Source of the DNA: Bacillota bacterium
GTDB taxonomy: Bacteria; Bacillota; Sulfobacillia; JAJYWN01
Assembly (NCBI GenBank): GCA_021791495.1
Contig: JAJYWN010000021.1
Coordinates: 1 to 64,000, forward strand
Direction of reading: 5' to 3'
DNA: 64,000 bases
This document shows, in pieces, positions 40,472 to 55,752 of the stretch (positions are counted from its first letter, which is position 1; every line of letters starts with the position of its first letter). A model generated the notes under the pieces. It searched no databases, was not told the DNA's origin, and saw only the letters and a program-made list of their open reading frames with translations. The position numbers and the translations under genes were made by a program.

Positions 40472-41374
40472 TCACGCGATGCGACCATCCCTGGCGCCCT
40501 TTGCGAACACCAGGTCGGCCTCAGCGAACTCCTGGTATTCCACCAGCCGGTACAGCTCCTGGCGGTCCAGCATGCGGCCGACGAAACCCACCTGGGTACC
40601 CGTGGCCCTAAGCTCCACCAAGGCGTCCCGCACCGCCTTCATCATCACCCGAAAGACGGTGACAGGGAAAATGGTGATCTGATAGCCCATCCGGGCGAAC
40701 TCCGCCTGAGGGAGATACGGCGTCTGGCCGAAGTCGGTCATGTTCGCCAAAAGGGGTACGCCGGGCGCGCATTCACGCATGCGGCGCGCGAACTCGGCAA
40801 ACTCCTCCCTCGTGTTCAACGCCTCGGGGAACACCACATCGGCTCCCGCCTCGACATACGCCCGCGCGCGCGCCACGGCATCTTCGAACCCGTGGACGGC
40901 CTTGGCGTCGGTGCGGGCAATGATGACGAAATCGGGATCACGCCGGGCGCCGACGGCGGCACGGAGCTTCTGGCACATCTCGTCCGTGGAAATGACGGCC
41001 TTCCCGGGCAGGTGGCCGCACCTCTTCGGGAAGACCTGGTCCTCGATGTGCACCCCGGCCACACCGGCCCGTTCGCACTCCCGGATGGCCCGGGCGGCAT
41101 TGTGGACACCACCGAAACCTGTGTCCATGTCGGCGATGACTGGTAGCTCCGGCACCGCCGCCGCGATGTAGCCGGCCGTCCGGACCATCTCGGACATGTC
41201 CATCAGCCCGATATCGGGCACCCCGGCCACGCCGTTGGCCGTGGCCGCGCCAGAAACGTACACAGCCTGAAACCCAACTTCCCTCGCGATCTTGGCGACG
41301 ATGGCGTCGAAGGCGCCGGGCACTGCCAGTGGTTCACCCTTCAGCAGTTCTCGGAGCTTGGTTGTGGTTCGCAT
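40472..41374 (-). CDS. Isocitrate lyase / PEP mutase family enzyme (methylisocitrate-lyase-like)
   Basis: A 300-residue barrel enzyme: DMDTGFGG metal-binding segment, KRCGHLPGK active-site loop with the catalytic Cys, and ARTDA. These fit methylisocitrate lyase (PrpB), 2,3-dimethylmalate lyase and oxaloacetate-hydrolase relatives, which split or cleave C-C bonds next to carboxylates. It is last in an operon with LeuC/LeuD-like, PrpD-like and HMGL-like genes, so it is the likely cleavage step. Start chosen at ATG 41374, where homology begins; the AAAGGA site is 14 bases away, so the start is less sure. Exact substrate is open. Confidence 0.85.
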   Translation of the reverse strand: MRTTTKLRELLKGEPLAVPGAFDAIVAKIAREVGFQAVYVSGAATANGVAGVPDIGLMDMSEMVRTAGYIAAAVPELPVIADMDTGFGGVHNAARAIRECERAGVAGVHIEDQVFPKRCGHLPGKAVISTDEMCQKLRAAVGARRDPDFVIIARTDAKAVHGFEDAVARARAYVEAGADVVFPEALNTREEFAEFARRMRECAPGVPLLANMTDFGQTPYLPQAEFARMGYQITIFPVTVFRVMMKAVRDALVELRATGTQVGFVGRMLDRQELYRLVEYQEFAEADLVFAKGARDGRIA

Positions 41375-41498
41375 AGTGTTTTGGTCAAATCCTTTCGTGT
41401 CATGGGGGCGCCCCGGCCAGTCGACCCACCGATCAGGCGAGCGCACGGGCGGACGGGGCGTCTCCGGTCATGTCGATTCAGGCTGGCTTGATCACCGT

Positions 41499-43025
41499 CT
41501 AGGCAGCCGGCTCGTGTGCCGCCGCCTTAGCGGCTTTCTTCTTGTTCCGGTATCCTTTGGTCGCATCCCACACCACGGCGAACAGCCCGACCGCCAGTGC
41601 CACAGCGCTAATCGGGCTGGTCAGGAAGACCACCGGATGACCTCCCGATAGCTGCATGGATTGACGCAGGGACTGCTCGAACCGGTCGCCTAGGACCAGC
41701 GCCAGCACCAAGGCCGCCGGCGGGAGGCCGATCAGTCGCATGAAGTACCCCACGACCCCGAACAGGATGACCAGATAGACATCGATCATGCTGTTGTTGG
41801 TGGCATAGGCTCCCACCACGGCCAGGGCGATGATCGCCGGCATCAGGAACTTGGGCGAGATGTCCAGTATCTTGACGAACATACCGATCAGAGGCAGGTT
41901 TAGTATCAAAAGAATGACATTGGAGATAAGCATGGAAGCAAGGACCGTCCAGACCAGATCGGCCTGCTCAGTGAAGAGCATGGGACCTGGACGGATCCCC
42001 CACATCATCAGGGCGCCCATCATAACGGCGGTTGTGCCGGTGGCCGGGATCCCGAGGGTGAGCGTGGGAATCATGGCCCCGGCGGAGGCAGCGTTGTTGG
42101 ACGTCTCGGCGGCGGCCACCCCTTCGATGGCCCCCTGGCCAAAACGCTCCGGATGCCTTGAAAGCCGTTTTTCGGTCATGTAGGAGATCACCGAGGCCAT
42201 GATCGGCCCGGCACCGGGCAGGACACCGGCCAAGAAGCCGATGACCGTCCCGCGGCCGATGGGGCCCGCCGAATCCCTGAACTCCTGCTTGCTGGGCCAC
42301 AGCCGGCCCTTCAGGGCCAGACGCTCGGCCGAGGCGCCCCCCTGACGGATCTCGCGGAAGTACCAGAGCACCTCGCCGACACCGAAGATGCCGACGATGA
42401 CCGATAGGAACTCCACACCGTCCAGAAGCTCCGTGACCCCCATGGTGAACCGCGGGACGCCGGTCTGCAGGTCTGTGCCCACGGTGGAGATCATCAGGCC
42501 CAGGCAGATGGCGATGGCGCTCTTCACGATGGAGCCGCCCATCATCGCGGCTGAGAGCATCAGTGCGGCCAGCATCACCGCGAAGTATTCCGTGGGTCCG
42601 AACTTCAGAGCGAACTCGGCCAAGGGTGGAGCCAAAAAGACGATGCCCCCGAGGGCCACCACACCGCCGATCCACGAACCGATGGCCGAGATGGCCAGAG
42701 CCGAGCCGGCCCGGCCCTGCTTGGCCATTTCAAACCCATCCAGGGCGGTCATCACCGAGGCTGCCTCACCCGGCACTCGCAGGAGCACCGAGGTCAGGGA
42801 ACCGCCGTACATGGAGCCGGCGTAGACGGCCGTCATCATGATTAAGGCGGTATCCGGCCGCATGGAGAAGGCTACCGGGATCAAGAGGGCCAGGGTGGCT
42901 GCCGGGCCCAGGCCCGGCAGCACACCCACGATGGTCCCCAACAGTGCGCCCAAGACAGCCGACGTTAGATTGGCGAAGCTCAGGGCGCCTTCGAAGCCGT
43001 GGAGCAGAAGCTGTAGGTTTTCCAT
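41499..43025 (-). CDS. Tripartite tricarboxylate transporter, large membrane subunit TctA
   Basis: A 508-residue membrane protein with about 11 hydrophobic segments and the TctA marks: GTIVGVLPGLGPAATLALLIP near the start, YAGSMYGGS, and the second-half repeat GFLAGVLPGAGPIMAS. It forms the sodium- or proton-driven channel of TctABC importers for citrate-like acids. The ATG at 43025 follows AAGGAGG. It is preceded by TctB (13 bases) and followed by the lyase gene. An Ala/Lys-rich cytoplasmic tail ends the protein. Confidence 0.95.
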   Translation of the reverse strand: MENLQLLLHGFEGALSFANLTSAVLGALLGTIVGVLPGLGPAATLALLIPVAFSMRPDTALIMMTAVYAGSMYGGSLTSVLLRVPGEAASVMTALDGFEMAKQGRAGSALAISAIGSWIGGVVALGGIVFLAPPLAEFALKFGPTEYFAVMLAALMLSAAMMGGSIVKSAIAICLGLMISTVGTDLQTGVPRFTMGVTELLDGVEFLSVIVGIFGVGEVLWYFREIRQGGASAERLALKGRLWPSKQEFRDSAGPIGRGTVIGFLAGVLPGAGPIMASVISYMTEKRLSRHPERFGQGAIEGVAAAETSNNAASAGAMIPTLTLGIPATGTTAVMMGALMMWGIRPGPMLFTEQADLVWTVLASMLISNVILLILNLPLIGMFVKILDISPKFLMPAIIALAVVGAYATNNSMIDVYLVILFGVVGYFMRLIGLPPAALVLALVLGDRFEQSLRQSMQLSGGHPVVFLTSPISAVALAVGLFAVVWDATKGYRNKKKAAKAAAHEPAA

Positions 43026-43038
43026 AGCTTCTTCCTCC

Positions 43039-43479
43039 TTAGAGAATCCCCAGCGGGCTGGTGGGGAGGGTCACGCCAAGCATGCGGGCGAACAGGCCCC
43101 AGGAAACCAGGGACGTCACCACCGCCACCACCAAGGTCAGCGGCCAGCGCTTCTCCCCCATCACCCTGATGCCACCGGCCATGAACAACGCCGTGGAGAG
43201 CACGTATCCAAGGACCGGCATCAGAACGCAATAGACTACGCCCAAGACAGTCATAGCCATCTCCGACCAGCCCAGGGCCGCCGGTTCATCCCCGCTCTTA
43301 CGTGCCAGGCCGACCAGGTTCAGCAGACAGAGGACGATCATCACCCCGGACACCAACAGCGGAAAGGCGCGGGGACCGATAGCATCGTCCAGCTTGACCT
43401 TGATGGAGAACGCGCTGTAGGCATAGGCGACACTGACAGCCATTAGCGCCAGGGTCACCCACTGTTCCGCCCGTTTCAC
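43039..43479 (-). CDS. Tripartite tricarboxylate transporter, small membrane subunit TctB
   Basis: About 146 residues with four hydrophobic segments, the usual TctB layout: AYSAFSIKVKLDDAIGPRAFPLL after the first helix, and the last two helices separated by RVMGEKRWP. TctB has low sequence conservation, but its position between TctC and TctA settles the call. I prefer the GTG at 43479 with a GGAG site upstream; a GTG at 43494 is also in frame, one base after the TctC stop. Confidence 0.85.
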   Translation of the reverse strand: MKRAEQWVTLALMAVSVAYAYSAFSIKVKLDDAIGPRAFPLLVSGVMIVLCLLNLVGLARKSGDEPAALGWSEMAMTVLGVVYCVLMPVLGYVLSTALFMAGGIRVMGEKRWPLTLVVAVVTSLVSWGLFARMLGVTLPTSPLGIL

Positions 43480-43495
43480 TTGGCTCCGCCTCACT

Positions 43496-44491
43496 TTAGG
43501 GCTTCTTCTGGCCCACGAACTTCTCGATGATCGGTTTGTTGGCTTCGCGCTCTTTCAGCAGGTAGTCCTTGAAAGCGGCCGAGTTCAGGTAGGCGTCTTC
43601 CTGCTCCATCTTCGCAAGGGCATCGGTCCAGCTCTTGGTCTTGACCAACTTGCCCAGCGTGTCATCCCAGTACTTCACCGCGGCGGCCGACATTCCCGGA
43701 GGACCAAAAAGACCGCGCCAGTGAGAGATGACCACGTCGATGCCGAGTTCCTTCCAGGTCGGTGTGTCCTTGACGGCCTTGCCGGTCAACCGCTTGTCCG
43801 ACGAGACGGTGAGGATCCGGGCCTTCCCGGCCTCAGCCTGCGCCGCCGCTTCCGAAACACTGGTCGAGATCACGTCCACGTGGCCGCCCAACAGGTTGGT
43901 CATGAGGTCGCCGCCACTGCGGAAAGCGGTCAGTTTCACTTTGGAGACGTCCACACCCTTGGCCATCAACGGCCGCAGGATGTTGAACTGGTCGTCACTG
44001 GGGATGGTGCCTACGCCGAAGGTCACCGACGCCGGGTCCTTCTTTACGGCGTCGATAATATCCTGGGCAGTCTTGTATTTGGAATCGGCCTTCACCGCCC
44101 ACGCTTCAAACTCGGTGGTCGTGCGGGCGATGGGGGTCGTGTCTTCAATGGAATACTGGGTGGTCCCCATCAGGTTATTGAGCCAGACGCGGTTGGATTC
44201 GTAGATGAGTACGTAGTCGTCGCCTTTCTTCTCCACCAAGTAGGAGCGGGCCACGTTTCCGCCACCGCCTTCCTTGTTGGTGATGACGAAGTTGGCGTTC
44301 ACCTTCTCCTTCTTCACAACATCATCCAGCACCCTGGCGGCCGTGTCCAGGCCACCGCCGGGCGATCCAGCCGCCACCAGTTCAATGGACTTGGCCGGGT
44401 ATTTGGATGACTTCGCCCCAGCGCAACCCGCCAGGGCAGAGACAGCGATCGCCACGACCGCAAGCAAGGCGATCCAACGAGCCAATTTCAT
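43496..44491 (-). CDS. Tripartite tricarboxylate transporter, binding lipoprotein TctC
   Basis: A 331-residue binding protein. The signal peptide ends in the lipobox ALAGC, so it is anchored on the outer face of the membrane, as expected for a Gram-positive cell. The TctC/Bug pattern is present: SIELVAAGSPGGGLDTAAR at the start of the mature part and the GGHVDVISTSVSEA segment. These proteins capture carboxylates and other metabolites for TctAB. Start at ATG 44491 after GGGGGAG. Gap to the upstream PrpD-like gene is 70 bases, the longest inside this operon. Confidence 0.9.
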   Translation of the reverse strand: MKLARWIALLAVVAIAVSALAGCAGAKSSKYPAKSIELVAAGSPGGGLDTAARVLDDVVKKEKVNANFVITNKEGGGGNVARSYLVEKKGDDYVLIYESNRVWLNNLMGTTQYSIEDTTPIARTTTEFEAWAVKADSKYKTAQDIIDAVKKDPASVTFGVGTIPSDDQFNILRPLMAKGVDVSKVKLTAFRSGGDLMTNLLGGHVDVISTSVSEAAAQAEAGKARILTVSSDKRLTGKAVKDTPTWKELGIDVVISHWRGLFGPPGMSAAAVKYWDDTLGKLVKTKSWTDALAKMEQEDAYLNSAAFKDYLLKEREANKPIIEKFVGQKKP

Positions 44492-44561
44492 CAAACTCTC
44501 CCCCTTCTCGGAAAAACACTGTTCGGACAGCCTGAGGTTCAGTCCCAGGCCTGTTCGAGGT

Positions 44562-45956
44562 TCAGTTCCTCTTGGGCACCAATAGCCCAGCCAGAGAGGA
44601 CACATCCGCCATAGCTTCCAGATGCAGAACGGCCTCCAGCAGCTCCGCCACCTGCCCGCGGGGCAGGACCTTCCCCGCCAAGCTCGTGAACTTCTCGATC
44701 ACTTCCTTTCGCGTCATGGGGTAGTGCGCGCTCCCCTTCGCGTGCAGGACTGTACACTGGGCGGTGCGACCGTCATTCATCCGGGCGACGACGCGTACGC
44801 CGTGCCGCCCCGTCCGCCCCAGGGAGCTGAACTCATCGGTCTCCACAATCCGCACTTTCTTCGTGAGGGCCACCGTATCGGGCCGTGAGATTCGATCGGA
44901 AGTGTACTGGTCCACGAAGACCTGGCCGTCCTGCAGGCAGACGGCCACCGCGTAGGACAGGTTCATCTGCGCGGAGGTCACCGATTCGGGCCTGTACTCC
45001 CAGCCGACGTGGTGGAGCGTGGTGGGGGTACAAAAGACCGTGACCCCGTCAACGGTTTCGCCGTTTAGCTCGGGCAGCTCGCCCTTCAGGGTGAGCACGG
45101 CGTCGATGGAGGTGTGGTTTGAGCCGCAGCAGGAATAAGGCTTGAAACCGGATGCGGCGCTTTCCCAGCGCGAGCCGAGGTCCCGGATGATCTCCTCCGG
45201 GTCGGAGCCCTTGGCCATGGTCGAGCAGAAGCCGCCGTAGGGCGCTTCAAGAAGGTCCACGATACCCGTCAGCCCGCGCCGTGCCAAAAGCGCCCCGTAG
45301 ACGCCGCTCTCGGCCGCGCGGCCCTGGTGGGCGCGCTTGACGTAGGAGTTATACTGGGCCGCCATGAGGCCGGAGGCCTGGGTTCCGGCGATGCCCACGG
45401 CGTGGAGGAAGGTGTCTCTGTGCAGTTCCAGCACCCGGGCGGCCCCCACCCCGGCGGCGACGGCGCCGGCCACGGCCGAGGAGTGATACCCGTTCGCCAA
45501 GGTGATGGCTCCGGTGGCCACACCGAGCCGGCAGCCTGCCTCGTACCCGGCCGCCACCGCGGCCAGAAAGCGCTCGCCGGACACCGACCCGCCGCTCCGC
45601 TCGGCCAGGGCCAGCACCGCCGGGATGACGGCCGAACCGGGATGAATGACCCCCACTTTGTGCAGGTCATCGATTTCGAAGCTATGGCCAAGGGTGCCGT
45701 TGGCCAGCGCCGCGGCGTGGGCGGGTACCTTTCGCCCGTCACCCCACAGGGTGGCCTCGGCCGCCCGCCCCTCGTCCTCGGCGGCGAAGTCGATCAGAAT
45801 CCGGCCCCAGGGGACAGTGGACCCGAACAAGCCGCAGCCCAGAGTGTCCAGGATGCACAACTTCAGGTGCTCCTGGACCTGTTCCGGCAAGTCCGTCCAG
45901 ACGAGATCCTCGCAGAACTCGGCCAGCCGGCGGGTCACCGGCACGCCCTCGCTCAT
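44562..45956 (-). CDS. MmgE/PrpD-family protein of the carboxylate operon
   Basis: A 464-residue family member with ANGTLGHSFEIDDLHKVG, HPGSAVIPAVLALAE, GYEAGCRLG and a GFKPYSCCGSNHTSIDA segment in place of the usual Cys-His run. 2-Methylcitrate dehydratase is the best-known activity of the family; decarboxylases and epimerases also occur. The start ATG overlaps the LeuD-like stop (ATGA). In this operon it could dehydrate the tricarboxylate made by the HMGL-like domain, with the LeuCD-like pair adding water back at another carbon. Confidence 0.9.
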   Translation of the reverse strand: MSEGVPVTRRLAEFCEDLVWTDLPEQVQEHLKLCILDTLGCGLFGSTVPWGRILIDFAAEDEGRAAEATLWGDGRKVPAHAAALANGTLGHSFEIDDLHKVGVIHPGSAVIPAVLALAERSGGSVSGERFLAAVAAGYEAGCRLGVATGAITLANGYHSSAVAGAVAAGVGAARVLELHRDTFLHAVGIAGTQASGLMAAQYNSYVKRAHQGRAAESGVYGALLARRGLTGIVDLLEAPYGGFCSTMAKGSDPEEIIRDLGSRWESAASGFKPYSCCGSNHTSIDAVLTLKGELPELNGETVDGVTVFCTPTTLHHVGWEYRPESVTSAQMNLSYAVAVCLQDGQVFVDQYTSDRISRPDTVALTKKVRIVETDEFSSLGRTGRHGVRVVARMNDGRTAQCTVLHAKGSAHYPMTRKEVIEKFTSLAGKVLPRGQVAELLEAVLHLEAMADVSSLAGLLVPKRN

Positions 45957-46450
45957 AGCACAAACCTCCCGTGCTTCTTCAGGTAGTTCACCAAGCCGCC
46001 TTCGTGACAGATCTCAAGCATGAACTTCGGTAGGGGCTTGGCCTGCCAGATCCGGCCCGTACTGGTGTCTCTGACCACCCCGGTGGAGAAGTCGACGTGG
46101 ATGGTGGCTCCGTCGGGGATGGCGGAAGTGTCGAACTCCAGGAGAGGTAGGCCCACATTGGCCGCATTGCGGTAGAAGATCCGCGCGAAGGAGGCGGCCA
46201 GCACTCCGCCGACTCCCGCGCCCTTGATCACCGCCGGCGCCGCTTCGCGCGATGAACCGCAGCCAAAGTTCCTACCGGCTACGATCACGTCTCCGGGCGA
46301 GAGTGAGGAGGCGAAGCCGGGGCGGATGTCCTCCATGAGGTAAGGCACCATGTCGGCGATGTTGACGCGGGACTCTTTGGCCTTGGCGGAGATGATGTAG
46401 TCGGTGTTGATGTCGTCGCCGAACCGGTGGGCCCGGCCAAGGGTATTCAT
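45953..46450 (-). CDS. Aconitase-family small subunit (LeuD-like)
   Basis: A 165-residue swivel domain of the LeuD/HacB type: [11 protein letters not shown] at the start, [14 protein letters not shown] and [19 protein letters not shown]. It pairs with the large subunit encoded just upstream; the two genes overlap by ATGA. Relatives act on 3-isopropylmalate, homoaconitate or 2,3-dimethylmaleate. The YRNA-NVG loop that helps set specificity does not by itself settle the substrate. Confidence 0.9.
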
Positions 46451-47757
46451 GCGCTCGCCCCCACTTCCATGTACTGCCGGCAGTCGGCGATGCGGCCTTC
46501 CAAGGCCGACGCCGCCACGGTGGCCGGTGACGCCAAGAAGAGGTTGGCCTCCGGGTTACCGAGGCGCCCCTTGAAATTCCGGTTGGCCGTGGTGACGACG
46601 TTCTCACCGTCCGAAGGAACACCCACGTGCGATCCGCCGGTACAGGCGCTGCAGCCAGGCTGGTTGATGATGGCCCCGGCCTCGAGCAGTATCTCAATGA
46701 TTCCGGCCCGCAGAGCGGCCAGGTAGATCGCCCGGGAGGCCGGCGTCACGAATAGCCGCACGTCTGGGTGGATGTGCCGGCCCGCCAGGACCCCGGCCGC
46801 CACGGCCAGATCCTCCAACCGTCCATTGGTACAGGTGCCGATAACCGCTTCCTTGATGGGAGTCCCGACCACGTCGGAGATGGGCCGGACGTTATCCACG
46901 TTATGGGGACAAGCCACCTGGGGTTCGAGAGAGGCGAGGTCCAGCTGGAGGCGGTCGATGTACCGGGCGCCTGCGTCCGGAGAGACGGCCGAGGCCGGGG
47001 TGGCTGGGGTGACCGGGGCGGTCGGATGGGCCGCACGGCGCTCCGCCAGCCAGCGTTCGAGCACCTCATCGCAAGGGAAGATGCCGGCTTTCGCCCCCAG
47101 TTCCACGGCCATGTTCGCCATGGTCATCCGGCCTGCCACCGAAAGCCCCGCCAGCGCGTCACCGTGGAACTCCAGGGCCGCGTAGGTCGCCCCATCGGCC
47201 CCGAGGCGGGAGGCCAGGGCCAGGATGGCATCCTTGGCGTAGACTCCCGGGCGGAAACGACCAGTCAGGTCCACATAGATGGACTCGGGCACTTTCAGCC
47301 AGAGCGTGCCGGTGAGGAACACCGCCGCTAAGTCACTGGACCCCACGCCGGTCCCAAGAGCGTTCAGCGCCCCATAGGTGCAGGTATGTGAATCGGTCCC
47401 CAGGACGAGATCACCGGGGGAGGCGTAACCCCGTTCGGGGATGATCTGGTGACAGACCCCCTCACCCGGCCCCAAGACTTCCACGCCGTACTCCCGCGCA
47501 AACCGGCGCATGCCATCGTGGATAGCGGCCGCCGCCAGGTTAGGCTGGGTGGGAGCGTGGTCGATCACCAGTATCACCCGGGCCGGGTCCCAGGGGCCGC
47601 CGCCTCCAAGCTCCCTCAAGATGTCGATGGACTGAGGCCGGTTCCCGTCATGGGCCACGGCCAGATCCACCGCGCACACCGCGATTTCTCCGGCCTCCAA
47701 GGGAGTCCCGGCCTTCCTCGAGAGTAGCTTCTCGGCGACGGTCTGGGCCGGTATCAC
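46447..47757 (-). CDS. Aconitase-family large subunit (LeuC-like)
   Basis: A 436-residue Fe-S hydro-lyase subunit. Cluster Cys residues lie in IGTCTNGR and PGCSACTGG, with GTDSHTCTYGALNALGTGVG, DHAPTQ and the LEFHGDALAGLSV segments typical of the LeuC/HacA/DmdA group. An Ala/Thr/Pro-rich loop of ~20 residues (around 255-275) is unusual. I prefer the GTG at 47757 with AGGAGG seven bases upstream over the GTG at 47763; the frame is open to 47913. It starts two bases after the fusion gene stop. No leucine-biosynthesis genes are close, so a catabolic role is more likely. Confidence 0.9.
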   Translation of the reverse strand: MIPAQTVAEKLLSRKAGTPLEAGEIAVCAVDLAVAHDGNRPQSIDILRELGGGGPWDPARVILVIDHAPTQPNLAAAAIHDGMRRFAREYGVEVLGPGEGVCHQIIPERGYASPGDLVLGTDSHTCTYGALNALGTGVGSSDLAAVFLTGTLWLKVPESIYVDLTGRFRPGVYAKDAILALASRLGADGATYAALEFHGDALAGLSVAGRMTMANMAVELGAKAGIFPCDEVLERWLAERRAAHPTAPVTPATPASAVSPDAGARYIDRLQLDLASLEPQVACPHNVDNVRPISDVVGTPIKEAVIGTCTNGRLEDLAVAAGVLAGRHIHPDVRLFVTPASRAIYLAALRAGIIEILLEAGAIINQPGCSACTGGSHVGVPSDGENVVTTANRNFKGRLGNPEANLFLASPATVAASALEGRIADCRQYMEVGASA

Positions 47758-47759
47758 GG

Positions 47760-49664
47760 TCACACCTCCTCGGTCAACTTCGCCAGTTCCTCGTCGGTGA
47801 TCTGGCGTTTCTCTGTTACAGCCAAGGCCTCGACTCTTGCCCGCAGCGCCTCCAGCTTTTTCTCCCCCGGGGCCGGGAGACCCAGTTCGGCCAGGCGCGC
47901 CTGAAGGGCCCACGGGCCGGCGTACTTGCCCAAGGGGAAACGCCGCCGGTTACCCACCGCCTCCGGCGGGAAAGGCTCATAGACCACGGGGTTAGCCATC
48001 ACTCCCATGACGTGGGCCTCCAGCTTATGGGCGAAAGCGTCGCGTCCGATGATGGGTTTCGACGGGTGGATGGAGATGCCCGAGAGCGACTCCGCGAAAC
48101 GCGCCGCTTCGGCCAGCCTGGCTAGGTCGATCCCCAGATCCAGTCCGTAGAAGAAGGTCAGCGTAGCCGCCAATTCCTCGGTGGCGGTGTTTCCAGCGCG
48201 TTCCCCCAGCCCGTAGAGGCAGCCGTCAACGATGGCGGCACCGGCTTCCGCGGCGGCCAGGGCGTTGGCCAACCCTTGGCCGGCGTCGTTGTGTGTATGC
48301 ACCTGAATGGGAACGTGCGTTCCCACGAACTCCACGATTTTTGAGACAAGGTAGCGCATGCCCGCCGGCGAAATGGTACCGGCCGTGTCGGCGATGGCGA
48401 TCCGCTCGGCTCCGGCGTCCAGCGCGGCCCCGTAGACCTCCTTAAGGAAGCCCAGCTCCGTCCGGGTCGAGTCCGTGGGACTGAAGCGGACCACCGCTCC
48501 GCGGCCGCGGGCGTAGCGCACGGCCTCGCGTACGCGCTCCACCATCTCAGCCCGTGTAGCTTTCTGGACGTACTTCAGGCGCACGTCCGAAGAGGGGTAC
48601 ATCAGGTCGACCACGTCGGCCCCTGACGCAAGGCAGGCGTCGATCTGGGCCTTCCAGTCCGGGGTGAAGGCCTGGGCGATGGCTTCCACGGCCAGGGGCA
48701 GGCCCTCGCCCTTAATGCGCTGAATCGCCTCCATGTCGAGCCGAGAACGCCCTGGGTAGCCACCCTGAATGAGGCGGATTCCGGCGGAGGCGAGCCGGCG
48801 GGCCAGTTCCACCTTCTCATCGGCGCCGAAGTTCACCTCCGACGCCTGCTCACCCTCACGGAGGGTGCAATCGTTGATGATGAGGTCGGGACGGAGGCGC
48901 AGGCCAGACAGGGCGGCGGGGTCCTGGTTGAAGACGCTCAGGTACTCCCGGTCGATGGGAATCGGCTTCGGCGCCGCTTGAGTCCCTACCCCGAAGGTAC
49001 GGCGCAGTGAGGCCAAGACCATGCGACCCCCACTCATCACATGGTCGCGCATTGCCTGCTCCGCGGCGTCGGGGTCCCGGTCCATCAGGGCCCGCTGAAC
49101 CACGGCATGCTCCTTGAAGGCGTCCGCCGTCCGACCGGGCATGGCGATGGAGACCGGACGGTAGCGGTGAATCTGGTCCTGCAATTGCCGGAGAATCTCG
49201 CCGCCACGGTTGGTGTCCCCAGCTTCGAAGATGATCCGGTGGAACTCGCGCCCGTACCGCTCAACGGCGGCATAGTCATTGGCCGCGGTGGACCGGCCGA
49301 TCTCCTGAGCTACGCGCTCTAGCTGTGTCAACTGTTCCGAAGTTATGCGGGTGGCCGCGCGGCGGCAAGCCATCCCTTCGACCATGGCCCGGATCTCGTA
49401 AAGCTCCTCGATCTCTCCCAGGCTGAGCCCCACCACTTCCACCACACCATTGGGGCGGCGGCGGACGAGACCTTCCTGCTCAAGGAGTTGGAAGGCTTCA
49501 CGCAAAGGAGTGCGGCTGACGCCGAGGGTCTCGGTCAGGTGCTTGGCCACCATCCGGTGACCAGGCTGCAGCTTGCCATCCAAGATGGCCTTTCGGAGTA
49601 TCTGATAGGTTTGCTGCGTATAGGTGACACTTCCGAGGCGGATTTCCCCAAAGGCCTTGTCCAT
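47760..49664 (-). CDS. GntR(FCD) regulator fused to an HMGL/homocitrate-synthase-like enzyme
   Basis: A 634-residue fusion. Residues ~10-80 are a GntR winged helix (QLLEQEGLVRRRPNG). Residues ~85-220 are an FCD ligand domain with His142, His186 and His208 placed like its metal-binding residues. From ~258 it is an HMGL-like barrel: Asp265 in NDCTLREGEQ, His456 and His458 in HTHND, and YGLGERAGN near 484. A short C-terminal part resembles homocitrate/isopropylmalate synthase without the LeuA regulatory domain. It may make a tricarboxylate from acyl-CoA and a 2-oxo acid while sensing a pathway acid. ATG 49664 follows AAGGGAG. First gene of the operon. Confidence 0.9.
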   Translation of the reverse strand: MDKAFGEIRLGSVTYTQQTYQILRKAILDGKLQPGHRMVAKHLTETLGVSRTPLREAFQLLEQEGLVRRRPNGVVEVVGLSLGEIEELYEIRAMVEGMACRRAATRITSEQLTQLERVAQEIGRSTAANDYAAVERYGREFHRIIFEAGDTNRGGEILRQLQDQIHRYRPVSIAMPGRTADAFKEHAVVQRALMDRDPDAAEQAMRDHVMSGGRMVLASLRRTFGVGTQAAPKPIPIDREYLSVFNQDPAALSGLRLRPDLIINDCTLREGEQASEVNFGADEKVELARRLASAGIRLIQGGYPGRSRLDMEAIQRIKGEGLPLAVEAIAQAFTPDWKAQIDACLASGADVVDLMYPSSDVRLKYVQKATRAEMVERVREAVRYARGRGAVVRFSPTDSTRTELGFLKEVYGAALDAGAERIAIADTAGTISPAGMRYLVSKIVEFVGTHVPIQVHTHNDAGQGLANALAAAEAGAAIVDGCLYGLGERAGNTATEELAATLTFFYGLDLGIDLARLAEAARFAESLSGISIHPSKPIIGRDAFAHKLEAHVMGVMANPVVYEPFPPEAVGNRRRFPLGKYAGPWALQARLAELGLPAPGEKKLEALRARVEALAVTEKRQITDEELAKLTEEV

Positions 49665-49700
49665 TGTCTCTCCCTTTCTGTGAGGTACATGCTTCGTGCA

Positions 49701-49712
49701 TACATGAATGTA
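49701..49712 (-). promoter_or_regulatory. Candidate GntR operator upstream of the fusion gene
   Basis: On the minus strand TACAT-TC-ATGTA is a perfect inverted repeat 37 bases before the start codon, extended on one side to TTGTACAT. GntR/FCD proteins bind short palindromes of this size. A second weak ATGC/GCAT repeat lies between it and the ribosome binding site. It suggests autoregulation of the whole operon. No clear -10/-35 pair was found here. Confidence 0.45.
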
Positions 49713-49860: not shown

Positions 49861-49891
49861 TTGAAGTGTCTTCACGTGTATTGTGTATAAT
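49861..49891 (+). promoter_or_regulatory. Promoter and operator of the ArsR-type gene
   Basis: TATAAT at 49886-49891 is a consensus -10 element, with TTGAAG at 49861-49866 as a -35 (spacing 19, a little long). A perfect inverted repeat TGAAG-TGT-CTTCA (49862-49874) overlaps the -35, a typical place for an ArsR-family repressor to bind. Confidence 0.6.
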
Positions 49892-49910
49892 GATGGCAGA
49901 GGTGACACCC

Positions 49911-50540
49911 ATGGTCTCCCTTGACGCGCGGGATCAGGACCGAATCGCTGTCGACAAAGTGGCTTTGGCGCTGAGCGACCCGATCAGACTTAAAATCCTG
50001 GACCTGCTGGCGATGGGCCGGTGCGATGACTGTTGCTCACCGGAAAATCCTGACGTGCCCCTGGGCATGTGCAGCTGCGATCTCCTGCCCACCTTGGACT
50101 TGGCGCCCTCCCGCCTTTCCTACCACCTGAAGGAGCTCCGGGAGGCTGAACTGATTACGGAGCAGAAACGCGGGCGGTGGGTCTACTTCTCCCTAAACCG
50201 GCCGACGGTGGAGCGGTTCATGGAGTCGCTGCGCGACCGGTTCGTAACGGAGCGGGAGCCGTCCTGTTCCGCCGCACCGAGTTGCTCCGAGGCGCCAGGT
50301 CGCTCTGGCGCGCCAAACTGCTCTGATTCGCCAACTTGCTCTGGCCCTCCAAGCACCTCTGACGAACACGGTTCCGAAGGCTGCGGAGGCGAACCTGCAC
50401 AGGCTTGCGGATCGGCAACGACCGCGTCATCCCAGACTTGCGGCTCGCCGGTTTCGCCGCGCGGTCACTCCGCAACGTCGTGCGGTCAAACGCGTGCCCG
50501 CGGACTGGAATACGCAATCCCTCGGCCTTTCGTAGAATAG
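49911..50540 (+). CDS. ArsR-family metal-sensing regulator with Cys-repeat tail
   Basis: A 209-residue protein. Residues ~15-110 are an ArsR winged helix (LALSDPIRLKILDLL, SRLSYHLKELREAEL, WVYFSLN). Cys54 and Cys56 in MCSCDL match the CxC metal(loid) site, and Cys38, 41 and 42 (RCDDCC) add more ligands in a longer loop than usual. From residue 118 six 6-residue repeats, [S/N/T]CSxxP-like, are encoded by an 18-bp tandem repeat (50262-50369); further scattered Cys follow, eight in the tail. Known ArsR proteins leave DNA when metal binds. ATG at 49911 after AGAGGTGA. Probably controls the genes downstream. Confidence 0.85.
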   Translation: MVSLDARDQDRIAVDKVALALSDPIRLKILDLLAMGRCDDCCSPENPDVPLGMCSCDLLPTLDLAPSRLSYHLKELREAELITEQKRGRWVYFSLNRPTVERFMESLRDRFVTEREPSCSAAPSCSEAPGRSGAPNCSDSPTCSGPPSTSDEHGSEGCGGEPAQACGSATTASSQTCGSPVSPRGHSATSCGQTRARGLEYAIPRPFVE

Positions 50541-50590
50541 CCCCCTCGGGACTTGACCCCACCCTATCCCCACCCCCACCTTCAAGGAAA

Positions 50591-50644
50591 GTACAAAAAA
50601 AGTTGTACTATCCGTTGACACTTCAAAAATTGTTGTAGTATCAT
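50591..50644 (+). promoter_or_regulatory. Promoter and palindrome upstream of the M28 gene
   Basis: TTGACA (50615-50620) and TATCAT (50639-50644), 18 bases apart, form a strong promoter. Just upstream, GTACAA/TTGTAC (50591-50608) is a perfect inverted repeat with a 6-base spacer, suited to a dimeric regulator. It differs from the repeat at the ArsR-type promoter. Confidence 0.6.
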
Positions 50645-50686
50645 TGGCTCGGAAGATCAAACCGCAGTCAAGGAAGTGGCAAGGAC

Positions 50687-52138
50687 ATGCAGCGGACAGC
50701 TCTCGCACAGGATACCGAGACCGAGACCGAGCGCGATGCAATCAGCCAGGATCTACGTTACCTGACCGGCAGCGAAGCAGCCGGCCGGCTCTCCGGCACC
50801 GACGGTGCCCGTCGCGCCTCCGTATACCTGGCCCAGGCACTGGAAGACCTCGGGTTGACCCCCGCCGGCAATGACGGCTACTTCCGGTGGCTTGACGTCG
50901 CGGCCGCACGGCTCACCGGGCCCGCTCGCCTCAAGGCGACCATCGCCAGCGACGTGACCGGTAGCGCGAAAACCCGCACCTACCAGCACCGTAAGGACTT
51001 CGCCGAGATGTCCAGCCTCTCCTCGGGAGGAACGGTTAAGGCCCCCCTGGTCGTAGTCACTGAAGAAGCTCAGGAGGAAAGCGGGCTCCGGCCGGAGGAC
51101 CTGAAAGGCAAGATCGCCCTGATCCCCAAGCGGCCGGCCGGGTTTGATTTCGGCGCCACCGTCACAACCGCCGCCGACCTTGGCGTGGTGGCACTTCTGG
51201 TGGAAATGGGCGAACCGGCGTGGTTCCACAAGACTGTCTATGGTTCACCGAACAATCGCATCCCGGTCTTGCGCGTTACGGCAAGCCTGGCGACCGAACT
51301 GGTTGCCGCTGCTGCTACCGCTGCGGCGGCTGGGCGCTCAGCCGGCGCCGCCGACGGCGGTGACGGTGCGGCCAATGCGGCCGTTCGCGCGGCAGCACCC
51401 TCGCCGGTAGAAGTCGAGATCGATCTGCCCTTGTCGTTCCAGTGGCTACCGTGCCGGAACGTCCTCGGTCTTCTGCCGGCCGGACGGCTGGCGGGCGGAC
51501 ACCTTCCCGGTAGCCTGATGCCGTCGACGCACGCGACGTCGGCCCTCACGCGCACCGTCGCCATCACCGCCCACTTCGACCACGTGGGTGACGACCCGGC
51601 GGGGCCGCGCTTCCCCGGTGCCATGGATAACGCTTCTGGCGTGGCGACGGTGCTGGCCGTCTTGCGGGCCTTGGCGGCACCCGCCCGCCGGACGCGGTTG
51701 CCCTTCAACCTGCTGGTCGGGTTTCTGACCGGCGAAGAGTCGGGGCTGTGGGGAGCCAAGGATCTTGCCGCCCACCCGCCTCGCCCCCTTTCGGCGGCGA
51801 TAAACCTGGACGGGATCGGCTTCGAGCCGGCTCTCCGTGCCATCCGGCTCGGCCGCTCCGCGCCCGGTCACTGGCTGGCGGACCTGGCCGCCGAGACATT
51901 CCAAGGGCTCGGCATCGAAGTCCGCTGGGTCACCGGCACCGACGATTCGGCCGCTTTCATGAATGCCGGCCTCTCCACCCTGGGACTTGGTCAGATGGCC
52001 ACCGAGCCCTGGCCGGCCGCCATGCACACGCCGGAAGACACCGCTGAGGTCCTGCACCTCTCCACCATCAAGGAGGGCGCCGACGCCATTCTATCGCTGC
52101 TTGACCGCCTGGCGGCCCGACCCGCTCGGGCGTTCTAA
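50687..52138 (+). CDS. M28-family zinc aminopeptidase with PA domain
   Basis: A 483-residue peptidase. Zinc ligands fit M28: His and Asp in TAHFDHVGD, Asp in GAMDNASG, Glu pair in LTGEESGLWG, Asp in AINLDGIGF and His in MHTPEDT. An inserted PA-type region lies before them (LKGKIALIPKR, GVVALLVEMGEP), carrying an Ala/Gly-rich insert around residues 205-235. No signal peptide is visible, unusual for this family. It has its own promoter but sits between the ArsR-type regulator and the Cys-rich/permease pair, so a link to metal handling is possible but unproven. Confidence 0.85.
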   Translation: MQRTALAQDTETETERDAISQDLRYLTGSEAAGRLSGTDGARRASVYLAQALEDLGLTPAGNDGYFRWLDVAAARLTGPARLKATIASDVTGSAKTRTYQHRKDFAEMSSLSSGGTVKAPLVVVTEEAQEESGLRPEDLKGKIALIPKRPAGFDFGATVTTAADLGVVALLVEMGEPAWFHKTVYGSPNNRIPVLRVTASLATELVAAAATAAAAGRSAGAADGGDGAANAAVRAAAPSPVEVEIDLPLSFQWLPCRNVLGLLPAGRLAGGHLPGSLMPSTHATSALTRTVAITAHFDHVGDDPAGPRFPGAMDNASGVATVLAVLRALAAPARRTRLPFNLLVGFLTGEESGLWGAKDLAAHPPRPLSAAINLDGIGFEPALRAIRLGRSAPGHWLADLAAETFQGLGIEVRWVTGTDDSAAFMNAGLSTLGLGQMATEPWPAAMHTPEDTAEVLHLSTIKEGADAILSLLDRLAARPARAF

Positions 52139-52206
52139 GCTCCAATCGGTATCACGCCACACGGTATCACGCTTCCACAAACCAATTCCCAAGGAGGTCT
52201 GAAGTC

Positions 52207-52548
52207 ATGTCTCAGAATCAGAATGAAAAGAAGAACGGCGGTTTGTTCGTGACCCTGATCAAGAAGTCGGTCGGCCTGCCGACCGGGAACTCGTCTTGTT
52301 GTGGCCCGGCCCCAGCCGCCGGCGCGGCGGAGCCGAAGACGGGCGCGGGTGCGTCCAATGCGGTGGCCGGGTCCTCCTGCCGCGGCCCCACCGAGGAGGC
52401 AGGCACCGCCCAGTCCGCCCAATCCTCGTGCTGCTCCACCGCATCACCGACCAGTGCCGACGCCTCATCCTGCTGCGGCACGGCAGCAACCTCTCCGGCA
52501 ACACCCGCCTCCGCCCCGGCCCAGAAGAACACCAACTGCTGCGGATAG
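52207..52548 (+). CDS. Small protein with repeated Cys-Cys-Gly motifs
   Basis: A 113-residue protein. After a basic, partly hydrophobic start (GGLFVTLIKKSVGLPTGN) it is an Ala/Pro/Thr/Ser-rich low-complexity chain carrying SSCCG-type motifs: four Cys-Cys pairs and a single Cys, ending in NCCG. The ATG follows a strong AAGGAGG site. It resembles no enzyme; a thiol-rich metal carrier or buffer is the natural guess. The next gene is a permease with a CSCG motif, and the regulator upstream also has a Cys-rich tail. Confidence 0.7.
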   Translation: MSQNQNEKKNGGLFVTLIKKSVGLPTGNSSCCGPAPAAGAAEPKTGAGASNAVAGSSCRGPTEEAGTAQSAQSSCCSTASPTSADASSCCGTAATSPATPASAPAQKNTNCCG

Positions 52549-52645
52549 GACCGGCCGCACGGGCGCAGGTCAAGATCATTCGAGACCGGGGTGCGGGCCG
52601 GCCCGCACCCCCTATTTCAGCAAGATTGCGGGAGGCTTGAGCACA

Positions 52646-53614
52646 ATGGACTTCGTGGTGAACTTGACCGTGACCGCACTAGGAAAAGTGTGGCACACCT
52701 TCTCCGGAAACTGGCCCCTCTTAGTGATCAGCGCCCTGATCGCCGCATCGATGAAGCTATACGTCGACCAGAAGAAGGTGGCCGCTTTCCTCCAGCGGCA
52801 CAAGGGTGCCGGCGTGGTGGGAGCCACCGCAGTCGGGGTCACCACGCCTTTGTGCTCATGCGGCACCACGGCCGTCATCCTTGGCATGATGGCCAATGCC
52901 CTGCCTTGGGCGCCCATCGTGGCCTTCATGGTCGCCTCGCCGCTCACCTCGCCGTCGGAACTGGTGTATAGCGCCGGCCTGTTTGGCTGGCCTTTCGCCC
53001 TGACGTTTTTTGTGGCCTCGATCGTGCTGGGGTTGGCCGGCGGCGTGGTGGCACACTTCCTTGAGCGGCGGGGGTGGCTGACGAATCAGGCGCGCTTCAG
53101 CCCGGTTCTGGGCGATGCGGCCGTGACTGGGGCCGAGTCGAGCGCGGCGGAGGCTGCTCTCGCATCTGGAAAGACTGCTCGGCCATCCCTGGCGGACCTA
53201 CTCCGCGAGACCGCCGTCGTCGGCCGGCGCCTCCTCCTGTTCTTCCTCGGGTTCGCCTTCATCGGTTACATCTTGAACGGCCTTATCCCCGAGACGTGGG
53301 TCTCCACGCTCTTTGGCGGCGGCCGCGTGTACGGCGTGCCGGTGGCGGCGACGCTGGGCCTTCCACTCTACATCAACACCGAGGCCTCGCTCCCCCTGGT
53401 ACGCTCGCTGATGAACCTTGGCATGAGCCCCGGCGCCACGCTGGCCTTTCTCATCACCGGCGCGGGCACCTCCATCGGCGCCATAACCGGCGCCCTGACC
53501 ATCGCCCGTTGGCGGGTGGTCGGGACCGTCATCGGGACCCTGTGGGTGGGCGCGACACTCATTGGCTACCTATACAACAGCGCCTTGGCCACAGGGTTGA
53601 TCGTAATGCGGTAA
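52646..53614 (+). CDS. PF03773-type permease with CSCG motif
   Basis: A 322-residue membrane protein with about eight hydrophobic segments in two blocks, joined by a polar loop (about 145-185). The family motif TPLCSCGTTAV is present after the first block and a second conserved region, NTEASLPLVRSLM, in the other. Related permeases include ArsP, which exports trivalent organoarsenicals, and proteins linked to heavy-metal efflux. The ATG at 52646 follows GGGAGG; the frame is open upstream to 52301 but that part overlaps the CCG protein and is not coding. Likely the export arm of the module. Confidence 0.85.
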   Translation: MDFVVNLTVTALGKVWHTFSGNWPLLVISALIAASMKLYVDQKKVAAFLQRHKGAGVVGATAVGVTTPLCSCGTTAVILGMMANALPWAPIVAFMVASPLTSPSELVYSAGLFGWPFALTFFVASIVLGLAGGVVAHFLERRGWLTNQARFSPVLGDAAVTGAESSAAEAALASGKTARPSLADLLRETAVVGRRLLLFFLGFAFIGYILNGLIPETWVSTLFGGGRVYGVPVAATLGLPLYINTEASLPLVRSLMNLGMSPGATLAFLITGAGTSIGAITGALTIARWRVVGTVIGTLWVGATLIGYLYNSALATGLIVMR

Positions 53615-53620
53615 GCACAT

Positions 53621-54463
53621 CTAGCCCGCCGTGGCCCGGTGGAAGGCGACGATGGCTTTGGCCACCTCGACGGCGATCAGTTCAATGAAGCGGCGCCCGT
53701 CCTCTTCGTTCGCCAGTAAAGGAGCTTCGGTATAGCCGCCCACGCGCTGCCAATCGCCGCTCTTCTGGACCAGCAGGCCGGGGGGAGTGAGTCCGGCGTA
53801 GTTGATGGGGGCCGGGTGGCCCGCATCCTTGGGAAAGCGGTCGTGGCGCACTAAGTCCGGCGCCAACGCCATCATGAGGGACGTCTCGAAGTTACCGGCA
53901 TGGCCCGGGAAGTTACCAAACTTACCCACCCCTGCCTCGCGGGCGGCGCCCTGAGCCACCGTCCAGTAGGAACAGGCGGCAAAGGCGACCCCGGCTGCCA
54001 CCGCCTCCGGCCTCAGCACCAGGTCGCGCCCCGCCAGCCGCACACACTCATCGTTACCGCCATGGGCGTTCAGGACGAAGATGCGTCGGAAGCCGGCCTT
54101 GACGGCGCAATCCAGCAGGTCGTGGAGCACGGCCATGTAGGTCTCGGTCCGCAGCGAGAGCGCCGAGTAGATCAGGTGATGCTGGGAATTCCCGAAGGGG
54201 ACCAACGGCGCAAGGCATACGGCGGGTCCCTTCTTGTCCGCCGTCGGTCGGCCGGTCTCCAGCCCGTCGGGTTTCGAATCGTCGGCCGCCAGTTCGGCCG
54301 CCCGCCGGGCGATGGCTTCCCCAATGGCGCAGTCAGTCTTCAGAGGTAGGTGTGGGCCGTGCTGCTCGGTGGCGGCCGTGGGCAGCACCAGCGTCATTTG
54401 CGGCGCAAGCTCCCGTACCTCGTCGCGCGTCATTTCGTTCAATACCATGAACTGGCCGCTCAC
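53621..54463 (-). CDS. Creatininase-family amidohydrolase
   Basis: A 280-residue protein with the creatininase pattern: TAATEQHGPHLPL (metal-binding Glu and His), a later FVLNAHGGND and GHAGNFETSLMM. The family hydrolyses cyclic amides (creatinine) or formamide-type compounds, including steps in riboflavin-related and mycofactocin pathways. Here it is the third gene of a minus-strand group with an enolase-superfamily enzyme and an M20 amidohydrolase, which suggests breakdown of an amide-containing compound. GTG at 54463 follows GGAGG. A ~20-residue polar insert lies after the first metal motif. Confidence 0.85.
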   Translation of the reverse strand: MSGQFMVLNEMTRDEVRELAPQMTLVLPTAATEQHGPHLPLKTDCAIGEAIARRAAELAADDSKPDGLETGRPTADKKGPAVCLAPLVPFGNSQHHLIYSALSLRTETYMAVLHDLLDCAVKAGFRRIFVLNAHGGNDECVRLAGRDLVLRPEAVAAGVAFAACSYWTVAQGAAREAGVGKFGNFPGHAGNFETSLMMALAPDLVRHDRFPKDAGHPAPINYAGLTPPGLLVQKSGDWQRVGGYTEAPLLANEEDGRRFIELIAVEVAKAIVAFHRATAG

Positions 54464-54564
54464 CGCGCAAGCCTCCCCCTCCAGACTCCGGCGCTCTAGG
54501 CTCCTGTCCTCTGGACTCCTGTCTTCATCATGTGGCTGTTGCTGGGCCGAGACGCACTGCCCAG

Positions 54565-55704
54565 TCAGGCCACGCTGTCGCCATCCCGCTCGTTCGCCGC
54601 CGAGGCCCTTGCCAGCGCATCCTCGTCGATGGTGACACCCAGTCCCGGGCCGCCCGGCGCCGGCAACACCCCGCCGACCACCTTGGTCAGCGGTTCGTTC
54701 ACCACGTCACCCATCTGGAGGGTCAGGGTCGTGTCCATGGCGTGGTTGATCACCCGCGTCGCCGCCGCCACGTGGAGGTGCGCCGCCGTGGAAATGCCCA
54801 GCTCCGAACCGCTGTGCATGGACATGTCCAGGCCCAGCATCTCGCAGGCACCGGCCAGCTTGCGCGTGGGATGGATCCCTCCCCACTTGTGCACGTCCGC
54901 CAGGATGACATCGACTGCCCCCAGCCGGAGAGCGGCCGGCACATCGTCAGGCTTTACGACGCACATGTTGGTCGCCAGGGGCATCCGCGCCTCGCGGCGG
55001 ACCCTGGCCATGGCATCCAGGCCCTCGACCGGGTCTTCAAGGTAGTCCATGGTTAGCGCCTGAAGGCGCGGCAGGAGGCGCAAGGTGTCGGCCACCCTCC
55101 AGGCCGCGTTCGGATCGACCCGCAGCCTAACCGCACCTCCGAAAACCTCCTGTAAGGCCTCCATGTTCAACACATCCTGCTCCGGGTCGTGGCTGCCCTT
55201 CAGCTTAATGACCTTGACTCCCTGCTCGGCGACCAGGGCCTTTCCGTCTTCCGCCAGCGCGCGGGCCAGGTCCTTCCCCCTGAATCCGCGGTGGGACGGC
55301 TTCTTGAAAACCAGCCCGCTCACCGGGATCTCGCGCCGGTAGTAGCCGCCCAAGAGAACAGCCAGAGGCCGCCCCGCCACCTTTCCGAGCAGGTCCCAGC
55401 AGGCCATTTCGATGCCCGCCAACGCGGCGAAGCCGACGTACCCGTAGAAGAAGGGGACCATGTGGTGTTTTGCCAGCATGGTCTCGATGTCCAGCGGGTC
55501 GACACCGATCAGGTCCGGCGTTAAGGTCTGGATGATGGCGGCTGTGGGCCGGCCACGGAAAGTCTCCCCAAGGCCCTCCAACCCCTCGTCGGTTCGTATG
55601 CGCACCACCGTGCGCGTGGTGGCGGCACGAGTGCCCACACTGCTGGAAAAGGGGACCGATAGCGGTACGTTGACGACGATTGTCTGCACAGACGTTATCT
55701 TCAC
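54565..55704 (-). CDS. Enolase-superfamily dehydratase (glucarate-dehydratase-like)
   Basis: A 379-residue mandelate racemase/muconate lactonising type protein. Metal ligands lie in LRVDPNAAW, YLEDPVEG and near ILADVHKWGG; a KLKGS segment supplies the second-strand Lys, and MHSGSELGIS carries the His and Glu seen near the active site of glucarate dehydratase relatives. It likely removes a proton next to a carboxylate and may eliminate water from a sugar acid. The true substrate is unclear. It lies 48 bases after the M20 gene and 101 bases before the creatininase-type gene. Confidence 0.85.
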   Translation of the reverse strand: MKITSVQTIVVNVPLSVPFSSSVGTRAATTRTVVRIRTDEGLEGLGETFRGRPTAAIIQTLTPDLIGVDPLDIETMLAKHHMVPFFYGYVGFAALAGIEMACWDLLGKVAGRPLAVLLGGYYRREIPVSGLVFKKPSHRGFRGKDLARALAEDGKALVAEQGVKVIKLKGSHDPEQDVLNMEALQEVFGGAVRLRVDPNAAWRVADTLRLLPRLQALTMDYLEDPVEGLDAMARVRREARMPLATNMCVVKPDDVPAALRLGAVDVILADVHKWGGIHPTRKLAGACEMLGLDMSMHSGSELGISTAAHLHVAAATRVINHAMDTTLTLQMGDVVNEPLTKVVGGVLPAPGGPGLGVTIDEDALARASAANERDGDSVA

Positions 55705-55752
55705 CGAGCCTGACCTCCCAGGTCCAGACCTACCTGCCCTGCCTGTTCCATC

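Follow-up and report, generated by a model that had tools for sequence, protein, structure and literature searches.

The window considered here is a stretch of 64,000 nucleotides from a genome of the Bacillota (contig JAJYWN010000021.1), and at positions 40472-49664 it carries an operon of eight genes, all on the minus strand, that encode nine domains as read from open reading frames (ORFs) and Pfam/NCBIfam profiles. Its probable role is the degradation of a branched organic acid, along an undescribed route. A preliminary description of the locus had proposed an eight-gene, single-strand set of these families, and both the ORF list and the profiles agree with it. The first gene (47760-49664, ATG at 49664) had been read as a Claisen-type synthase domain of the HMGL rather than the citrate synthase type. 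The synthase is indeed present, but it had been overlooked that a single ORF of 634 amino acids comprises GntR (PF00392), FCD (PF07729), HMGL-like (PF00682) and HCS_D2 (PF22617) domains, the GntR winged helix and FCD profiles both being above cut-off. A GntR-FCD regulator is, in other words, fused in frame with an HMGL/homocitrate-synthase-like enzyme. It is followed by a LeuC-like large subunit of the aconitase superfamily (46447-47763; PF00330, with TIGR01343 and TIGR02086 above cut-off), a LeuD-like small subunit with a substrate-loop motif (45953-46450; TIGR02087 above cut-off) and a dehydratase of the MmgE/PrpD superfamily (44562-45956; PF03972/PF19305) that is not a PrpD equivalog. The next three genes make up a complete TctABC importer, all of whose profiles lie above their gathering scores: the periplasmic/lipoprotein solute-binding protein TctC (43496-44491; PF03401, with a likely start at 44491 and a lipobox LAGC), the small membrane subunit TctB (43039-43494; PF07331) and the large membrane subunit TctA (41499-43025; PF01970). 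The last gene (40472-41446; TIGR02317), whose probable ATG start lies near 41374, encodes a C-C lyase that is PrpB-like, belongs to the ICL/PEP-mutase superfamily and has a KRCGH motif.

The genes had been described as tightly packed with ATGA overlaps, which is accurate for the LeuC/LeuD and LeuD/PrpD junctions. The HMGL/LeuC junction shares GTGA instead, with the GTG start of LeuC inside the overlap, and the remaining genes are separated by gaps of about 70 bp (PrpD/TctC), 1 bp (TctC/TctB), 13 bp (TctB/TctA) and, according to which lyase start is taken, about 52-124 bp (TctA/lyase). No terminator-like sites were seen between the operon genes on the minus strand.

Conservation of the operon and the regulator-synthase fusion

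The preliminary description had advised comparing the operon in related genomes, and its gene order proves to be kept there. Among 154 genomes of the same class, a close synthase was found in two further ones, G135 and G064, both of which present the order of the window: GntR, HMGL, LeuC, LeuD, PrpD, TctC, TctB and TctA, followed by the lyase in G135. In G064 an ornithine-cyclodeaminase-like gene (by sequence reading) comes after TctA, at the contig end. Identities to the window proteins amount to 45% for GntR, 50-51% for HMGL, 54-57% for LeuC, 56-61% for LeuD, 43-44% for PrpD, 48-54% for TctC, 34-35% over part of TctB, 57-58% for TctA and 53% for the lyase of G135. Since this order is kept in two other genomes, the three bacteria being only distant relatives of one another, the operon is one selected unit and more than a chance grouping. 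It is also rare: when 398 genomes were sampled evenly across the phylum, none but the window genome and G135 carried a synthase of this kind, and the conservation described here is that of three genomes only. Plasmids yielded no copies of the operon, only partial look-alikes. A contig scan made with one protein and no alignment returned a distant homologue only, and says nothing on absence elsewhere.

In G135 about 16 bp separate the regulator gene from that of the synthase; the two share a GTGA overlap in G064 and form one ORF in the window. An AlphaFold model of the protein (mean pLDDT 87.3) displays two confident domains joined by a low-confidence linker at residues 225-238. The fusion is known from one assembly, and it may have originated from a sequencing error, given that a G5 run lies close to the junction and that stops are found there in another frame. 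It would also make it feasible to test if a pathway's first enzyme and its transcription factor act as one protein. Upstream of the regulator gene, at a distance of about 115-130 bp, the palindrome CATGCNGCATG occurs once in each of G135 and G064, with an expectation of 0.01-0.03 per locus. It is absent from the window even when one mismatch is allowed; a related inverted repeat with a longer spacing, GTATGC-ACGAA-GCATGTAC, imperfect and on the minus strand, is located instead at 49685-49703, 21-39 bp before the ATG of the operon. It is plausible that these upstream repeats are operators, and the one in the window is a candidate.

Family position of the enzymes and their genome context

By their profiles, the parts of the operon each belong to a known superfamily. 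For the HMGL part, the nearest solved structure is the Sulfolobus homocitrate synthase (6ktq), both by sequence search and by fold search. The three synthases of the operon stand apart in a tree built with isopropylmalate, homocitrate, NifV and Re-citrate-synthase-like enzymes: they make up a clade of their own (100/100 support) with a long stem, on the other side of the tree from the Re-citrate-synthase-like clades of Bacillota. When the active-site columns are read in Thermus numbering, the operon synthases keep the catalytic R/E/Q and two His, and they combine Glu13 and Arg133, which in the compared set occur otherwise only in alpha-aminoadipate homocitrate synthases. The positions facing the substrate side chain are His and Arg in homocitrate synthase versus Leu and Glu in isopropylmalate synthase, the residue at position 133 being the Arg that contacts the side chain in the former and Glu in the latter (PMC12961565). 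The homocitrate-synthase pocket pair is not complete in the operon enzymes, where Arg133 is present and His72 is replaced, and position 137 is Thr versus Glu in homocitrate synthase. The homocitrate synthase model TIGR02146 gives 279.8 bits, below its cut-off of 413.55, whereas a Deinococcus homocitrate synthase used as a control reaches 419.8. Judged by these features, the synthase is a subfamily that matches no characterised one, and we infer that its substrate is a 2-oxo acid which carries a distal carboxylate and which is shorter than 2-oxoglutarate or differs from it in another way; oxaloacetate would fit.

The LeuCD pair misses the isopropylmalate-isomerase equivalogs (LeuC, 402 versus 610.65 for TIGR02083; LeuD, 161 versus 246 for TIGR02084). 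It is not the only candidate for the isopropylmalate isomerase of the genome, a possibility raised in the preliminary description, because a separate contiguous leuA-leuC-leuD operon, with a LeuC 46% identical, lies on contig C51, and a third LeuCD on C81. A role of the operon in leucine biosynthesis is rejected on account of the former. In the phylum, the best LeuC matches (54-57% identity) belong to clusters of an HMGL synthase, LeuC, LeuD and a gene of the isocitrate dehydrogenase (IDH) family. Going by a published description of Re-citrate synthases (PMC12016533), the HMGL genes of these clusters would be Re-citrate synthases and their LeuCD the aconitase of that route. G037 and G038, from the window's own order, carry such a cluster and have no PF00285 citrate synthase. 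The operon LeuC (operon clade 97/99) is sister to the LeuC of these clusters, and the joint group with the third LeuC of the window genome has 80/98 support. In the LeuD loop the operon has NTDYIISA..K, the Re-citrate-synthase-like clusters have NTDYIISGKYKFK and the third copy has NTDYIISSRRK, as opposed to the YLRT of homoaconitase and the YLVY or YLNT of isopropylmalate isomerase. The conserved Lys of this loop could hold a third carboxylate. Both the sister position of LeuC and the shared LeuD loop with its Lys favour a tricarboxylate as the substrate of the pair.

The lyase passes the prpB model TIGR02317 by a small margin in the window (360.7 versus a cut-off of 354.4), and that of the G135 operon falls just below it (352.4). 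Its KRCGH motif is that of PrpB, versus KKCGH in ICL (PMC11982470), a distinction that is not decisive, as the canonical MmgF of G135 reads KKCGH. The Glu and Pro of the PrpB alignment are retained. In a small tree, the operon lyases fall outside the clade of MmgF and the Bacillus methylisocitrate lyase and group with a Halomarina plasmid lyase found beside LeuCD, with moderate support (94/94) and a long Halomarina row. Against solved structures, the window lyase scores 228 bits with E. coli PrpB and 202 with 3fa3, the only dimethylmalate lyase listed. The dehydratase, for its part, fails the 2-methylcitrate dehydratase models (29.7 versus 458 for TIGR02330; 31.2 versus 575 for PRK09425), while the canonical PrpD of G135, taken as a control, obtains 759 bits on the PrpD equivalog model. 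It retains the Asp, His and Lys of the family in alignments to IRG1 and IDS-epimerase.

The preliminary description had also suggested looking for prpC elsewhere in the genome, and no PF00285 citrate synthase, PrpC included, was found in the window genome. Nor does it contain a second PrpB-like lyase, and apart from the operon enzyme LeuA is its only HMGL synthase of this kind. G037-G039 lack PF00285 as well and have neither a synthase of the operon clade nor the lyase, so that the missing Si-citrate synthase is weakened as an explanation of the operon.

Several other loci were recorded in the course of the analysis. In the window genome, the third LeuCD pair stands alone on contig C81 (L031 4762-6782), with a LeuD loop close to that of the operon, and contig C68 (L033 1046-8355) holds in a row an IclR-like regulator, an aconitase (644 aa), an isocitrate dehydrogenase and TctCBA, an arrangement suggestive of a unit that takes up and oxidises citrate, in a genome lacking citrate synthase. 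Clusters of Re-citrate-synthase-like HMGL, LeuC, LeuD and IDH-family genes recur in Bacillota (L096-L107, L120 and L121), several of them adjoining gatA/gatB-like amidotransferase genes, and two distinct HMGL clades fill the same slot in them. On the Halomarina plasmid (L055 8106-10780), LeuC, LeuD and the ICL/PEP-mutase-family lyase are adjacent, with AtuA, DUF4387 and acyl-CoA genes nearby. A Bradyrhizobium japonicum plasmid (L059 10001-15000) carries HMGL, LeuC, LeuD-like, ICL/PEP-mutase-superfamily and IDH-family genes, possibly a phosphonomethylmalate-type phosphonate pathway. A second gene of the MmgE/PrpD family is present in the window (18048-19460, minus strand), the genome having at least four. 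Upstream of the operon, the plus strand encodes an ArsR-type regulator (HTH_5), an M28-family peptidase, a Cys-rich ORF and a large permease-like ORF (49866-53614), followed on the minus strand by a row of creatininase-family, mandelate racemase/enolase-family and M20 peptidase genes (53621-56964).

Candidate pathway and competing explanations

The explanation that we favour, with about even confidence, is that of an inducible import-and-cleavage operon with the architecture of the methylcitrate cycle and a catabolic role, acting on a branched, probably imported tricarboxylate. We infer the order and direction of the reactions, the substrate class and the regulation as follows. The GntR-FCD domain would sense a carboxylate, and TctABC would import an organic acid related to the acids of the cycle. 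The HMGL synthase would join an acyl-CoA to an oxaloacetate-like 2-oxo acid with a distal carboxylate, giving a citrate-type tricarboxylate from which MmgE/PrpD would take off water; the aconitase-like LeuCD would re-add it at the neighbouring carbon, and cleavage of the resulting iso-acid by the PrpB-like lyase would release a succinate-like dicarboxylate along with a 2-oxo acid, probably pyruvate. Propionyl-CoA and oxaloacetate are the simplest single guess for the substrates of the synthase, albeit a doubtful one. The succession of steps matches the methylcitrate-like chemistry with an HMGL synthase put forward in the preliminary description, in a genome without PrpC.

Several observations weigh against the tricarboxylate explanation. 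Position 72, His in homocitrate synthase, is Ile, Ile and Leu in the three operon synthases. There is no obvious need to import a tricarboxylate for a cycle that produces one. The lyase is not seen in the G064 operon stretch up to the contig end, and the only lyase of that genome adjoins its canonical prp genes. The window genome has two matches to methylmalonyl-CoA mutase, an enzyme found in all six of the genomes searched for it. Finally, the operon coexists in G135 with all of the canonical prpCDB/mmgDEF genes and with a separate match resembling isocitrate lyase; it would therefore be a third lyase system there and redundant in a plain methylcitrate or glyoxylate role. For the same reason, the unit is probably not simply the canonical methylcitrate cycle.

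That an HMGL enzyme has merely displaced PrpC in an ordinary methylcitrate cycle is accordingly given little probability. There is a counterpart for every step, and the lyase passes the prpB model in a genome with no other PrpB and no PrpC; yet the PrpD scores far below the cut-off for 2-methylcitrate dehydratase, the canonical cycle also exists in G135, methylmalonyl-CoA mutase is present and the importer is left unexplained. It is unlikely, though less so, that the fused synthase is a replacement citrate synthase of a new Re-type clade and the operon a unit for citrate uptake and a reaction series resembling the glyoxylate shunt (oxaloacetate and acetyl-CoA to citrate, isocitrate, and then glyoxylate and succinate). 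The genome lacks PF00285, two of its three order relatives have a Re-citrate-synthase-like gene within a Re-citrate synthase/LeuCD/IDH cluster where here only the operon enzyme and LeuA are available, and the operon LeuCD clade is sister to that of such clusters. However, G135 and G064 carry the operon despite having ordinary citrate synthases, the synthase is placed outside the Re-citrate-synthase-like clades with a pocket of E13/R133/I72 versus D13/S133/W72, and KRCGH together with the conserved Pro suits isocitrate less well than a substrate that bears a methyl group. At 97% completeness, moreover, the assembly may simply lack a Re-citrate synthase.

The pairing of LeuCD with a PrpB-like lyase is the defining pair of the dimethylmalate module of nicotinate fermentation. 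It has been considered accordingly that the operon serves the catabolism of an imported 2,3-dialkylmalate or dialkylmaleate resembling dimethylmalate, which LeuCD would hydrate and the lyase would cleave to pyruvate and a monocarboxylate, as at the end of that fermentation. The operon has this pair, and its lyases cluster with the Halomarina plasmid enzyme apart from MmgF, but the synthase and PrpD are left without a role, Arg133 speaks against a pyruvate-type substrate, LeuC groups with the LeuC of Re-citrate synthase clusters and the operon contains no nicotinate-pathway genes. The preliminary description had set this reading beside the methylcitrate-like one; it is weaker, since it explains neither synthase nor PrpD and the LeuCD phylogeny points to a tricarboxylate, and we regard it as rather improbable. 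A homocitrate-type chain, in which 2-oxoglutarate and an acyl-CoA would yield homocitrate or methylhomocitrate, to be isomerised and cleaved into glyoxylate or pyruvate and glutarate, is likewise given little probability. The synthase most resembles homocitrate synthase in sequence, fold and E13/R133; nevertheless, the conserved His72 is replaced, TIGR02146 stays below cut-off, LeuD lacks the YLRT loop, the operon has no lysine-pathway genes and no lyase is known for homoisocitrate. As the rivals differ in substrate specificity, which sequence cannot settle, the caution originally expressed about the true substrate is upheld.

Beyond the favoured tricarboxylate explanation, it can tentatively be proposed that the operon encodes a third cycle related to the glyoxylate and methylcitrate ones, for a tricarboxylate that lies outside the range of both isocitrate lyase and methylisocitrate lyase. 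A new HMGL subfamily would start this cycle and, here, one protein would serve as transcription factor and first enzyme. If true, this would enlarge by one more branch the small group of cycles in which tricarboxylates are made by Claisen synthesis, isomerised in the aconitase manner and cleaved by a retro-aldol reaction, and would give the uncharacterised HMGL subfamily a substrate class that can be tested.

Comparison with known systems

The literature searched, with most subscription journals outside its reach, held no description of the gene combination, the separate synthase clade or the regulator-synthase fusion. Among the systems described, alpha-aminoadipate homocitrate synthase (TtHCS 2ztj, SaHCS 6ktq) shares with the operon synthase REGEQ, R133, Ser/Thr135 and the metal-binding His pair, and the latter differs in its Ile/Leu for His72, its Thr for E137, its own clade and, in the window genome, its GntR-FCD fusion. 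The 2,3-dimethylmaleate hydratase and dimethylmalate lyase of nicotinate fermentation have in common with the operon a LeuCD-like hydratase and a PrpB-like lyase, a likeness drawn by enzyme families, but neither a Claisen synthase nor a PrpD takes part in that route. Likewise, the phosphonomethylmalate-type pathway, with the Bradyrhizobium locus as look-alike, aligns HMGL, LeuCD and an enzyme of the ICL/PEP-mutase superfamily in a row, whereas the operon enzyme has KRCGH, no PEP-mutase loop and 29% identity to the L059 enzyme; the phosphonate biosynthesis suggested by such a gene set is rejected on account of the lyase motif. The Re-citrate-synthase-like/LeuCD/IDH clusters (G037, G038, L096-L107) also place an HMGL-type synthase before a sister-clade LeuCD with the NTDYIIS loop, but employ another HMGL clade, have IDH instead of a lyase, and lack PrpD, transporter and regulator. 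Lastly, the methylcitrate cycle (prpBCD/mmgDEF) presents the same reaction types, namely a Claisen synthase, a PrpD-family dehydratase, an aconitase-type hydratase and a PrpB-family lyase, from which the operon departs by its HMGL synthase, its non-equivalog PrpD, a dedicated LeuCD in place of AcnB/AcnD, and the addition of TctABC and of a GntR/FCD regulator.

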